A DNA stretch of 36,775 bases, from contig CAISEE010000021.1 in NCBI GenBank assembly GCA_903884345.1, positions 1 to 36,775 on the forward strand. The letters are read 5' to 3'. This document shows positions 9,154 to 13,506 of the stretch, in pieces. This DNA comes from Candidatus Adlerbacteria bacterium. GTDB lineage: Bacteria; Patescibacteriota; Minisyncoccia; Phycocordibacterales; SBAW01. The notes under the pieces are model-generated. The model did not search any database. It was not told the DNA's origin and was given only the letters and a program-made list of their open reading frames with translations. Each line of letters begins with the position of its first letter. Position 1 is the first letter of the stretch. Made by a program: the position numbers and the translations under genes.

Positions 9154-11542
9154 ACAACCACCTGTGCGCATCGTGCTCCTCGATACCCATGCGATTTTGC
9201 ATCGGGCCTACCATGCGTTGCCCGATTTTGCGTCGGGGAAGGGCGAGCCCACCGGGGCGCTCTATGGGCTGGTCTCGATGCTGGTAAAAATCATCACCGA
9301 CCTCAAGCCCGACCACATCATCGCGGCCTTCGATTTGCCGGAGCCCACGCATCGCCACATTGCCTACGCCGAGTACAAGGCGCAACGAAAGAAGGCCGAC
9401 GACGCCTTGGTGGCGCAACTCATCCGCTCGCGCGACGTCCTCGACGCCTTCGGCATCCCGCGCTACGAGTGCTCGGGGTTTGAAGCCGACGACGTCATCG
9501 GCACTATCGTCGAGTCGCTCAAAGGGGACGAGTCGGCCGACATCATCATCGCCTCGGGCGACAAAGACCTGCTCCAACTCATCGACGGCACTCGCGTGCG
9601 CGTCTACACCTTCAAGCAAACACTCGCCGACACGGTGCTCTATGACGCTGCCTCGATGGCAGAGAAGTACGGATTTACGCCTGCGCAGGTCACCGACTAC
9701 AAAGGCATCGTCGGCGACCCGTCGGATAACATCACCGGCGTGCCCGGTGTGGGCGAGGGGAGTGCGGTCAAACTCTTGGCGACGTACGGCAGCATCGAGT
9801 CGCTTCTTTCCGCACTACAACAAGACGGCGTCGAGGTGGTAGCGAAGGCGGCGGCCATCCAAAAGCGCTACGCGCAGATGATTGCCGACCACGAAGAGGA
9901 CGCGCTCTTTTCTAAAGAACTCTCGACCATCCGTCGCGACGCGCCGATTCACTTTGCGCTGCCGGAGCAGAGTTGGCGCGAGCGCGTCGAGACTAGCAAA
10001 GTATTTGATATGCTGGCCGAGTTCGACTTTCGCGGGCTCGTGCCGCGCGTCAAAGCGCTGCTTGCAAACGGTGCACCCGAGGCCGAGGCGAGCGCGCAGC
10101 CCTCGATCGGTTTTGACGAGGGCGAGGTCATCGCACCCGAGGAACTGGGCCCTGTGGCGCTCGCGGTGTGGGTCCTCGACTCCAGCATCACACAGCCCGG
10201 CCTCGACGACATCTATCGCACGGGGAAGAGTCGCGTCTTCGCCGAAGCCAAACAGAATATTTTGCATGATATAGCCGAGCGTAACCTCGACTTTGTGTAT
10301 GAACAGATCGAGCTGCCGCTGACGCCCGTCCTGCGTCAAATCGAGAACACCGGTGTCAAGATTGACACGGCCTTTTTGCGAGAACTCTCGACGACCTACC
10401 ACACGCAGCTGGCCGACATCGCGGCGCGGATCTACGAGGCGGCCGGCGGCCCGTTTAATATCAACTCACCCAAGCAGCTGGGCGACGTCCTGTTTGACCG
10501 GCTGGGGCTTGCGGTTAAAAACCAAAAGAAGACCGCGGGTGGCCAGCGCTCGACCAAGGAGTCGGAGCTCGAGAAGATGCGCTCGCTCCACCCAATCATC
10601 ACCGACATCTTGGCGCACCGCGAACTCTCGAAGTTGCTCGGGACCTACATCGACACCATCCCCACCATGCTCGACGAGCAGAGTCGCCTCCACACGACCT
10701 ACGTCCAAGCGGGGACCACCACCGGGCGCCTCTCGTCGCAAAACCCTAACCTGCAAAACATTCCCATCAAGACCGACTTGGGCCGGGCTATTCGAAACGC
10801 CTTCGTCGCAAGCCCTGGCATGCAGCTCGTGGCCTTCGACTACTCGCAGCTGGAGTTGCGCATCGCCGCGTTTCTCTCGGAGGACGAGGCGTTGCTCGAC
10901 ATCTTCAAAGCCGACCGCGACGTCCATACCGAGGTCGCCTCGCGCGTCTTTCATGTACGAGCAGAGGACGTGTCCTACGAGCAGCGCCGCCGCGCCAAGG
11001 TCATCAACTTCGGCATCCTCTACGGCATGGGGGTGAATTCCTTGCGCGAGTCCCTCGGCAGCACCCGCGCCGAGGCGCAGGAGTTCTTCGAGCAGTACTT
11101 CGCGGCCTTCCCGCGCTTGGCCGAGTACCTCGAGGGCACCAAGGCCGACGCGTCGCGCCTGGGCTACACCGAGACGTACTTCGGCCGCCGCCGCTACTTC
11201 GAGGGCATTCAGTCGAAGATTCCCTACATCAAGGCGTCGGCCGAGCGCATGGCGATTAACGCGCCGATCCAGGGCACCGAGGCCGACATGATCAAGCTCG
11301 CCATGGTACAGATTGCGGCGTGGATCAAAAACGAAGGCATCCACGACGACATTCACCTGTTGCTTCAGGTTCACGACGAACTCGTCTTCGAGGTGCGGGA
11401 GGGGAAGGTCGAGTCCTGCGCCGCGCGTATCCGCGCAATTATGGAAAACGTGATTCCTGAGAAAGATCGCAAAGGGATTCCGTTTAAAGCCGAGGGCGAA
11501 GTTGGCGCCAACTGGGGCGATATGCAAGAATTGCAGCTATGA
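9143..11542 (+). CDS. polA: DNA polymerase I, with vestigial proofreading region
   Basis: Repair and Okazaki-fragment polymerase, 799 aa. The 5' nuclease domain (about 1-290) shows GFEADDVIGT and the helix-hairpin-helix GVPGVGEGSAVKLL. The polymerase domain (about 390-799) has motif A DYSQLELRIA, motif B RRRAKVINFGILYG and motif C LQVHDELVFEV. Between them are only about 100 residues where a 3'-5' exonuclease domain would normally have about 190, and the DxE exonuclease motif is not visible, so proofreading is probably lost. That is common in shortened bacterial Pol I. The ATG overlaps the tsaE stop; the TGA overlaps the next ATG (ATGA). Confidence 0.95.
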   Translation: MSAKQPPVRIVLLDTHAILHRAYHALPDFASGKGEPTGALYGLVSMLVKIITDLKPDHIIAAFDLPEPTHRHIAYAEYKAQRKKADDALVAQLIRSRDVLDAFGIPRYECSGFEADDVIGTIVESLKGDESADIIIASGDKDLLQLIDGTRVRVYTFKQTLADTVLYDAASMAEKYGFTPAQVTDYKGIVGDPSDNITGVPGVGEGSAVKLLATYGSIESLLSALQQDGVEVVAKAAAIQKRYAQMIADHEEDALFSKELSTIRRDAPIHFALPEQSWRERVETSKVFDMLAEFDFRGLVPRVKALLANGAPEAEASAQPSIGFDEGEVIAPEELGPVALAVWVLDSSITQPGLDDIYRTGKSRVFAEAKQNILHDIAERNLDFVYEQIELPLTPVLRQIENTGVKIDTAFLRELSTTYHTQLADIAARIYEAAGGPFNINSPKQLGDVLFDRLGLAVKNQKKTAGGQRSTKESELEKMRSLHPIITDILAHRELSKLLGTYIDTIPTMLDEQSRLHTTYVQAGTTTGRLSSQNPNLQNIPIKTDLGRAIRNAFVASPGMQLVAFDYSQLELRIAAFLSEDEALLDIFKADRDVHTEVASRVFHVRAEDVSYEQRRRAKVINFGILYGMGVNSLRESLGSTRAEAQEFFEQYFAAFPRLAEYLEGTKADASRLGYTETYFGRRRYFEGIQSKIPYIKASAERMAINAPIQGTEADMIKLAMVQIAAWIKNEGIHDDIHLLLQVHDELVFEVREGKVESCAARIRAIMENVIPEKDRKGIPFKAEGEVGANWGDMQELQL

Positions 11543-12180
11543 TAGTCGCATTCTTCGGCGCCGACGCAGGAGTACGAGCAGACCACCGCCGCGCGTGGCT
11601 CAAAAATGCGAAGCACTCGGCAGGGCAGGTGGATGAGCGCTCGTGGGAGCAGATGAGTGTCGCGGAGCTTGCCGCACTCGCCTCGACCAGCTCGCTCATG
11701 GGCGATACACAGCTGTTTCTCTTCCCCGGAGCACTCACCAGCGAGCGAGCCGATGACTTTCTCGATTTCGCCGAGGAGTTGGCAGCCTCCGAGCACATCT
11801 TCATCTTCGACGAGGAGAAATTGCTCAAGCGTCCGACCGATATTCTCACCAAAGCGGGCGCGCAGATTGAGGTCTTGGCGGCAGTTAAAAAAGAGGAGAC
11901 CTTCAATGTCTTCGCGGTCGCCAACGCTTTTGGTGCGCGCGACAAGAAAAAGTTTTGGCTCCTCTTGATGGAAGCCGCTCGCCGCGAAGCCGCACCCGAA
12001 GCTATCGCCGGCATGCTCCACTGGAAGGTGCGCGACATGTTGGCCAAGGGAGAGCGGGGCAAATTCACGACCGCGGAACTGAAAGACCTCTCGCGCCGCC
12101 TTGTCGCGCTCTATCACGACTCGCACCGCGGGGCAGGGGAACTTAGCCTCCTGTTGGAGCGCTTCGCCCTCACGTTGTAG
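11539..12180 (+). CDS. holA: DNA polymerase III delta subunit-like clamp-loader protein (short)
   Basis: Probable HolA-type delta subunit, which opens the beta clamp during loading. 213 aa, against roughly 330 in most bacteria. The C-terminal helical collar region is recognisable (AGMLHWKVRDMLAKG, then LKDLSRRLVALYHDSHRGAGELSLLLERFAL). The N-terminal half has a beta-strand pattern ending in IFIFDEEKLLKR, like the degenerate AAA+ domain of delta. There is no Walker A motif, as expected for delta. The start overlaps the polA stop as ATGA, indicating translational coupling. The gene symbol rests on the overall pattern and position, not on a single diagnostic motif. Confidence 0.7.
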   Translation: MIVAFFGADAGVRADHRRAWLKNAKHSAGQVDERSWEQMSVAELAALASTSSLMGDTQLFLFPGALTSERADDFLDFAEELAASEHIFIFDEEKLLKRPTDILTKAGAQIEVLAAVKKEETFNVFAVANAFGARDKKKFWLLLMEAARREAAPEAIAGMLHWKVRDMLAKGERGKFTTAELKDLSRRLVALYHDSHRGAGELSLLLERFALTL

Positions 12181-12225: not shown

Positions 12226-12298
12226 CCGCCTATAGCTCAGTTGGTAGAGCAGCTCCCTTTTAAGGAGACGGTCGCAGGTTCGAATCCTGCTGGGCGGA
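12226..12298 (+). tRNA. tRNA-Lys (TTT anticodon)
   Basis: Complete cloverleaf: acceptor CCGCCTA/TGGGCGG, D stem GCTC/GAGC, anticodon stem with loop CTTTTAA (anticodon TTT), T arm GCAGG-TTCGAAT-CCTGC, discriminator A. The CCA end is not encoded (CAA follows). An extended -10, TGG-TATAGT (12208-12216), lies 9 nt upstream. The outermost anticodon-stem pair is a G-A mismatch. Confidence 0.95.
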
Positions 12299-12306
12299 CA
12301 AAATTG

Positions 12307-12315
12307 TGCTACAGT
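12307..12315 (+). promoter_or_regulatory. Extended -10 promoter of the metK riboswitch leader
   Basis: TGC-TACAGT directly after the tRNA-Lys gene. Transcription would begin near 12322, just before a 5' hairpin, CTTCCCC-TGT-GGGGAAG (12324-12340). Confidence 0.5.
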
Positions 12316-12348
12316 GTGCGTACCTTCCCCTGTGGGGAAGTGGTTCGG

Positions 12349-12459
12349 CCGACATATCACGAGTGATGGATAGAGCTCTGGCTCCCTGACCCATCCAGCA
12401 ACCTCATCGCGACTTTCGCGAGAAAGGTGCTCCCTCCAGCCCGCAAGGGAAAGATATAG
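12349..12459 (+). ncRNA. SAM-I (S-box) riboswitch aptamer
   Basis: Matches the S-box layout: P1 formed by ATATC (12354-12358) and GATAT (12453-12457), then the CACGAGTGATGGA segment, the core CCAGCAACC, a variable P3 stem TCGCGA-CTT-TCGCGA, and AAGGTGCTCCCTCCAGC, closing with GGGAAAGATAT. It binds S-adenosylmethionine and sits directly upstream of metK, whose enzyme makes SAM, so it is feedback control. Confidence 0.92.
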
Positions 12460-12509
12460 CATCGATATTTTTCGTTACTACTCTTTCCGTATAGGGAAGT
12501 TTTTTATTA
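12447..12509 (+). terminator. Riboswitch expression platform: terminator with competing antiterminator
   Basis: Terminator: CTTTCC (12483-12488), loop GTATA, GGGAAG (12494-12499), then TTTTTTATT. Antiterminator: GGAAAGA (12448-12454), which is part of the 3' side of aptamer P1, is complementary to TCTTTCC (12482-12488). SAM binding holds P1, frees TCTTTCC and lets the terminator form, so the switch is OFF with ligand. A further pair, TTTTTCGTTA (12468-12477) with TAACGAAAAA (12516-12525), brackets the terminator and touches the metK start region. Confidence 0.85.
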
Positions 12510-12528
12510 TCTAGCTAACGAAAAACAC

Positions 12529-13506
12529 ATGCTCAAAACAGCTGAATCCGTCTCCCTCGCGCACCCCGACAAGGTTTGCGACCAAATATCAGACGCCATC
12601 CTCGACGCGTGCCTGGCAGAAGACCCGTACTCGCGCGTAGCGATCGAGACCTTGGGTGGCCACGGCATCATCACGGTGTGCGGCGAGCTTACGACGCGCG
12701 CGTCCATTAATATTCGAAACATCGCCGAGGAGGTCTATCGCGACTGTGGCTACCACGAGCCCATTGGGGTCACGGTCAATGTGGTCGAGCAAAGTCCCGA
12801 GATCGGGCACGGCGTCGACCAGGACGGCGCGGGGGATCAGGGCATCATGGTGGGCTATGCCACGAGTGAGACACCCGAGTGCCTGCCGCTCGAAGTCGTG
12901 CTCTCGCGGCGATTGGCGCGGGCCATGGGGCGCCACGACGGTAAGTCGCAGGTGACGCTTCAAGACGGCAAGATCGTGCGCATCCTCACCTCGGTATGCG
13001 CAGGTGTGGATACCTCCGACGTAACACTCAAAGAAGCTGCAGAAGCGCTCGTCCCGTACCTGGCAGCAGGTAAGACGCTCGCGGACGTGTGGCTGCAGAA
13101 TCCCAACGGGGAGTGGACCATCGGGGGTTTCGCAGCCGACACGGGGCTCACGGGTCGCAAGCTCGCAGTCGATAACTACGGGCCCAATGTGCCGCTCGGT
13201 GGCGGCTGTTTTTCGGGGAAGGACGCGACCAAGGTCGATCGCAGCGCCGCCTACATGGCGCGCCGCATCGCGGTCGATTACCTCAAACAAAAGGGCGCCC
13301 GCGAAGTCTACGTGCAGCTCGCCTATGCGATTGGGGTCGCGGAACCATTGATGGCGGTGGCGCAAGTCGACGGCAAAGAGGAGGCGGTCGTGGGCTACGA
13401 CCTGCGCCCGCAGGCCATCATCGAGCAACTCGGCCTACGCCGCCCGATCTTTCGCAAGAGCGCCGAGTACGGCCACTTCGGCAACGGCTTCTCGTGGGAT
13501 GCCTGA
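12529..13506 (+). CDS. metK: S-adenosylmethionine synthetase, compact form
   Basis: Makes SAM from methionine and ATP in the cytoplasm. Signatures: AHPDKVCDQISDAILD at the N-terminus, GAGDQGIMVGYA (ATP loop) and GGGCFSGKDATKVDRSAAY (phosphate-binding loop), with the C-terminal YGHFGNGFSWD. 325 aa against the usual 380-400; the shortening is internal, in the central domain, and all three signature blocks remain. No Shine-Dalgarno motif is seen; the ATG follows the AACGAAAAACAC segment of the riboswitch platform. Expression is controlled by the SAM-I riboswitch. It converges on uppS, with only 3 nt between the stop codons and no obvious terminator. Confidence 0.95.
   Translation: MLKTAESVSLAHPDKVCDQISDAILDACLAEDPYSRVAIETLGGHGIITVCGELTTRASINIRNIAEEVYRDCGYHEPIGVTVNVVEQSPEIGHGVDQDGAGDQGIMVGYATSETPECLPLEVVLSRRLARAMGRHDGKSQVTLQDGKIVRILTSVCAGVDTSDVTLKEAAEALVPYLAAGKTLADVWLQNPNGEWTIGGFAADTGLTGRKLAVDNYGPNVPLGGGCFSGKDATKVDRSAAYMARRIAVDYLKQKGAREVYVQLAYAIGVAEPLMAVAQVDGKEEAVVGYDLRPQAIIEQLGLRRPIFRKSAEYGHFGNGFSWDA

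Follow-up and report, generated by a model that had tools for sequence, protein, structure and literature searches.

The closest described system is the SAM-I riboswitch (S box leader, RF00162), in which the helices P1–P4 form a four-way layout, the P2 loop pairs with J3/4 in a pseudoknot, and a terminator with an antiterminator stands before metK. The spermidine-sensing variants of SAM-I were described as changed in J1/2 and in the P3 internal loop, with one example on metK, according to PMC10853860. PMC4508563 states that the riboflavin riboswitch was not found in Parcubacteria. Our literature search returned no report of SAM-I in these bacteria, which is weak evidence of absence. Here, the leader of a metK gene was analysed in the window, that is, the whole 36,775-nt stretch of Candidatus Adlerbacteria DNA. 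This leader is very probably an ordinary SAM off-switch of the well-known type. Its features are collected in Table 1.

Table 1. Features of the metK leader and its neighbours, in positions of the window.
Feature	Position	Strand	Basis and remarks
tRNA-Lys (TTT)	12226..12299	+	ARAGORN, Rfam 69.9 bits; upstream neighbour, outside the switch
Extended -10 promoter-like box TGCTACAGT	12307..12315	+	Read from the sequence
5' leader hairpin CTTCCCC/GGGGAAG	12324..12340	+	Read from the sequence; this genome only
P1	12354-12358/12453-12457	+	5 bp, A+U rich; 3' strand GATAT; RF00162 match and covariation
P2	12363..12396 (pairs 12366-12369/12391-12394 and 12363/12396)	+	RF00162 match and covariation
P2 upper stem	12373-12375/12382-12384	+	Internal loop at the kink-turn position; RF00162 match and covariation
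Pseudoknot CTGG/CCAG	12378-12381/12436-12439	+	P2 loop with J3/4; covariation
P3	12398-12404/12425-12430	+	Inner hairpin; ligand-site strands GCAACC/GGTGC; RF00162 match and covariation
P4 (CCC GCAA GGG)	12440-12442/12447-12449	+	3 bp; RF00162 match and covariation
Antiterminator 5' strand GGAAAGA	12448..12454	+	Sequence, folding, own-versus-permuted test
AGCAT	12458..12462	+	Can pair with ATGCT 12529-12533 (start codon); folding prediction only
Long-range arm TTTTTCGTTA	12468..12477	+	Pairs with 12516-12525; perfect 10 bp
TCTTTCC	12482..12488	+	Antiterminator 3' strand and terminator 5' arm; terminator scan, folding
Intrinsic terminator CTTTCC-GTATA-GGGAAG + TTTTTT	12483-12488/12494-12499; six T 12500-12505	+	Independent terminator scan
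Long-range arm TAACGAAAAA	12516..12525	+	Alternative: GAAAAAC 12520-12526 pairs with the T tract (folding)
metK, methionine adenosyltransferase, 325 aa	12529..13506	+	Three Pfam S-AdoMet_synt domains over cut-off

The first-pass annotation had described a SAM-I riboswitch with a complete transcriptional switch on metK; it named RF00162 as the family to search and a poor covariance score as one result that would speak against it. The RF00162 search at a relaxed threshold matched 12351-12460 (+) over the full length of the model (positions 1-108), with 36.1 bits and E = 9.8e-7. The match was significant, but its score lies under the gathering score of 44.4 bits, which is a curation threshold and not a structural feature. 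At curated cut-offs, the Rfam search over the whole window returned three tRNAs only. The same stretch was the sole SAM match in its own 887 kb genome (RF00162, E 6.2e-7). The leave-one-out covariance model, built from 35 related aptamers with the window's own aptamer excluded, found 12351-12460 as the single match across the 36.8 kb window (75.8 bits, E = 2.4e-16), a match well beyond chance. Matches to CRISPR-DR57 and Phe_leader in this stretch (E 2.8 and 9.9) were rejected as chance. Judged from its sequence, 12351-12460 is a SAM-I (S-box) aptamer, which would bind SAM. Every structural feature of SAM-I that we checked can be read in it, and only the curated score falls short.

SAM-I matches were found in 5 of the 41 genomes of the family, in 73 of the 397 genomes of an order sample (E<=0.001; 46 over the gathering score) and in 84 of the 379 genomes of a phylum sample (59 over the cut-off). 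These counts are lower bounds, as stricter filters lose weak matches; in the order sample, 27 of the 73 genomes with a SAM-I match have none that reaches the Rfam cut-off. An S-box had been called notable in a reduced, probably CPR, genome, and the order and phylum counts showed that it is not unusual there. A relative of the window metK was present in 80 genomes of the order sample. Across the 397 genomes, metK and SAM-I were both present in 57 and both absent from 301; metK occurred alone in 23 and SAM-I alone in 16 (Fisher p 2e-35, ignoring kinship). A total of 81 aptamers were examined, namely 78 of the 79 places of the order sample (G130:C12 was left out) and 3 from the family search; G406 and G300:C30 look doubtful yet were kept. 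Of the 81, 57 precede metK on its own strand at a distance of 47-389 nt. Aptamers before a metK relative occurred in records labelled Nomurabacteria, Kaiserbacteria, Taylorbacteria, Moraniibacteriota, Falkowbacteria and Parcubacteria. The clade model R1 (36 rows, the window aptamer among them) was applied to nine metK loci without an RF00162 hit. It recovered an aptamer just upstream in three (L055, L065, L069) and none at the other six.

Other genes were also found behind SAM-I aptamers. In G423, G362, G309 and G164 (L046, L181, L196, L168), the aptamer stands before a cystathionine-lyase/synthase-like PLP enzyme and not before metK; the enzyme was called by profile scan at L046 and by eye at L181, L196 and L168. 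The aptamers of L018, L038, L026, L027, L021 and L022 precede small proteins of no assigned family. Five of these six proteins were scanned, with no Pfam match over cut-off and two weak ones below it. It is possible that the small proteins are encoded by SAM-regulated genes. Two subtypes of the aptamer were seen. One has a P1 starting with CTTTCATC and an altered P4 region, and stands mostly before metK (L024, L155, L157, L162, L163, L188). The second has a rearranged P2 (GGAGAT..AAGGG..CCC..GCTCC) and stands before non-metK genes (L184, L189, L190, L198, L159, L169, L195); several of its members carry a TACACCGCC-type terminator.

The four helices of the window aptamer follow each other in SAM-I order, and the P2 loop–J3/4 pseudoknot is present. 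The ligand-site strands GCAACC and GGTGC are present, as is the GAT of P1. The metK-linked aptamers contained GCAAC in 56 of 57, GTGC in all 57 and GAT in 56. J1/2 of the window aptamer is AC, where AA is usual; AC was found in 3 of the 57. The 5' leader hairpin was absent from the leaders of 15 relatives inspected. A pairing of its sequence with the P4 region is predicted at -46.1, against -44.3 for the aptamer (12322 to 12465). A sigma-70 scan found no two-hexamer promoter in the region of TGCTACAGT. Several relatives carry TACACT/TATACT-type boxes shortly 5' of the aptamer, as judged by eye. We infer that the transcript starts near 12322.

Covariation was scored on 36 aptamers that were hand-selected among the 57 metK-linked ones, with long inserts and the P4-altered type excluded; through this selection, the pair counts lean to well-aligned members. 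Standard pairs filled 94.2% of the 909 pair cells, against 32-45% when the partners were slid by 1-3 columns. Both-sided changes occurred in 16 of the 26 pairs, and none of 500 shuffles reached any of the measures. The pseudoknot showed both-sided changes at 4/4 pairs and was 95.1% paired, and P2 showed them in 3/3 upper and 4/5 lower pairs. RNAalifold on a 35-row alignment recovered P2 and P3 only (13 pairs), and the full structure was therefore tested as a named structure.

On the 3' side of the aptamer, GGAAAGA is the exact complement of TCTTTCC, and folding lengthened this antiterminator by pairing 12457-12459 with 12478-12480. GGAAAGA had been assigned to the P1 3' strand. Its exact pairing with TCTTTCC held, but its placement had to be corrected: GG lies in the 3' strand of P4, AAA makes up the joining strand, and GA alone belongs to P1. 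The antiterminator would invade P1 less than it invades P4 and the joining strand. A terminator was present in 47 of the 57 metK-linked leaders, against a mean of 5.4 and a maximum of 11 in dinucleotide shuffles; this control was used in place of mononucleotide shuffles, which gave 2.8. In the 47 leaders with a terminator, the arm scored a mean of 15.6 against its own aptamer tail and 13.7 when permuted (0/5000 permutations). The fit of the window antiterminator alone was moderate, as 2 of 50 shuffled arms were equally good.

The predicted energies over 12342 to 12500 were -44.8 kcal/mol for the antiterminator and -41.1 kcal/mol for the aptamer with terminator. From the probable start at 12322, they were -57.6 and -51.8 kcal/mol. 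The folding of 12341-12531 was modestly better than that of shuffles overall (z -1.25). Without ligand, metK is predicted to be on, with the antiterminator state lower in energy. The binding energy of SAM is plausibly large enough to pay this gap, and ligand binding could plausibly reverse it. The aptamer, the terminator and a mutually exclusive antiterminator that uses the aptamer 3' strand make up the complete transcriptional switch that had been proposed, as read from the sequence, the terminator scan and predicted folding.

We hold with high confidence that a transcription-terminating SAM-I off switch controls metK, in which SAM would be bound and transcription would actually terminate. 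When SAM is scarce, GGAAAGA of the nascent leader would pair with TCTTTCC. This pairing would open P4 and the base of P1 and block the terminator, and metK would be transcribed. When SAM is abundant, it would bind the four-helix aptamer and keep P1 and P4 closed. TCTTTCC would then be free, and the terminator (12483-12499) with its T tract would form and stop transcription before metK. The proposed switch is supported by family membership, synteny, covariation, terminator enrichment, matched antiterminators and the energy order. Together with the elements, which lie where they had first been placed, and the covariance score, these results bear out the assignment of a SAM-I riboswitch before metK. 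The points weighing against it are the Rfam score under the cut-off, the short P1 and P4, AC in J1/2, the competing leader hairpin, the z of -1.25 and the moderate fit of its own antiterminator.

A second layer of control was considered, in which SAM also blocks translation of read-through mRNA by burying the start codon. A long-range pair that reaches the metK start had been noted at first pass as a possible control of translation. This pair is exact as described, and when dinucleotide shuffling was applied to its two segments, 14 of 20000 shuffles were as stable. With P1 closed, AGCAT and TTTTTCGTTA would pair with ATGCT and TAACGAAAAA, and the antiterminator state would leave the start codon free. 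Folding agreed with this: the start-codon bases were unpaired at 0.07/0.01/0.01 with aptamer and terminator enforced and at 0.97/0.92/0.54 with the antiterminator enforced. Shine-Dalgarno use is rare in this genome (3 of 20 window gene starts, selected by the analyst), so hiding the ATG itself would be the way to block translation. The relative G148 has a stem of different sequence that also includes its ATG (38/20000 shuffles as stable). The start-codon stem would exclude the antiterminator fold; at least one relative, G148, appears to have gained such a stem with another sequence.

The second layer is nevertheless unlikely. A significant stem was found in only 2 of the 24 testable leaders (the window and G148; median p 0.385); the remaining leaders lacked a terminator, had a distant start or offered too little flanking sequence. 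The layer would act on read-through RNA only, and the ligand-free RNA ensemble also favours the stem (0.84). The extra translational control is structurally coherent, with the start codon buried in folding, but it lacks general conservation. Because the stem is largely private to this genome, we keep dual control as a hypothesis. It is improbable, in turn, that some SAM-I switches in this SD-poor lineage act twice, first through the terminator and then through a buried start codon (12458-12477 with 12516-12533). The long-range stem was rejected as a general feature of metK leaders on the same count. Translational control via Shine-Dalgarno was also rejected; no Shine-Dalgarno-like sequence was found before the metK start, and an SD-like four-mer occurred in 3 of 51 metK leaders, at least one of them inside a terminator.

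A decayed relic, in which the aptamer was inherited with metK and switching was lost, would account for the score below the Rfam cut-off, the short P1 and P4, and the extra 5' hairpin able to compete with the aptamer. We consider it very unlikely, as no helix is disrupted and the pseudoknot, the terminator and a matching antiterminator are all in place. A changed ligand is barely credible: AC in place of AA in J1/2 recalls the spermidine-sensing variants, one of which is on metK and which differ from SAM-I in J1/2 and in the internal loop of P3, but both P3 strands, GCAACC and GGTGC, are unaltered here, most relatives carry the gene of the SAM-making enzyme behind the aptamer, and PMC10853860 places the variants in Gram-positive genera and metagenomic samples.

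The predicted SAM off switch stands before a metK whose protein scored 298.3 bits with TIGR01034, just below the NCBIfam equivalog cut-off of 309.4. The metK start lies 69 nt 3' of the aptamer, which places a SAM/sulfur-metabolism gene behind it, as is expected of SAM-I. The protein was 53-56% identical to the other five metK proteins of the genus and did not group with them. It grouped with metK of other families, with identity up to 76%. In the metK tree, the genus label needs two changes, which are forced by well-supported branches. The surroundings of the upstream gene 11539-12180 were compared in 19 sibling loci; 15 contain tRNA-Lys and a sixteenth contains a tRNA called as stop-anticodon, and none of the 19 carries metK there. 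The tree placement and the sibling loci without metK make it probable that metK and the switch arrived as a unit beside tRNA-Lys. The genome (100% complete by tool) makes SAM. A profile search of it gave no match to PF01048 or PF05221, the candidate routes for disposal of S-adenosylhomocysteine. PF05221 is the SAH hydrolase family, and PF01048 is the nucleosidase family that includes MTA/SAH nucleosidase.

This 0.9 Mb genome thus very probably has its SAM synthesis under an ordinary metabolite switch, and SAM-I aptamers occur commonly in this phylum of ultra-small genomes. As an idea only, natural SAM-I switches could become inducible-expression parts for these bacteria.

Compared with SAM-I (RF00162), the window locus has the same P1–P4 four-way layout, P2 loop–J3/4 pseudoknot, GCAACC/GGTGC strands and GAT in P1, the same terminator/antiterminator and the same position before metK. 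It differs in its 36.1 bits, its short P1 and P4, AC in J1/2, a possible start-codon stem and its host, an ultra-small-genome bacterium. The spermidine variant, its consensus compared by the legend of PMC10853860 only, shares the fold, the off-type terminator and, in one example, the metK position. That variant changes J1/2 and the P3 loop, whereas the window aptamer has one unusual base in J1/2 and an intact P3.
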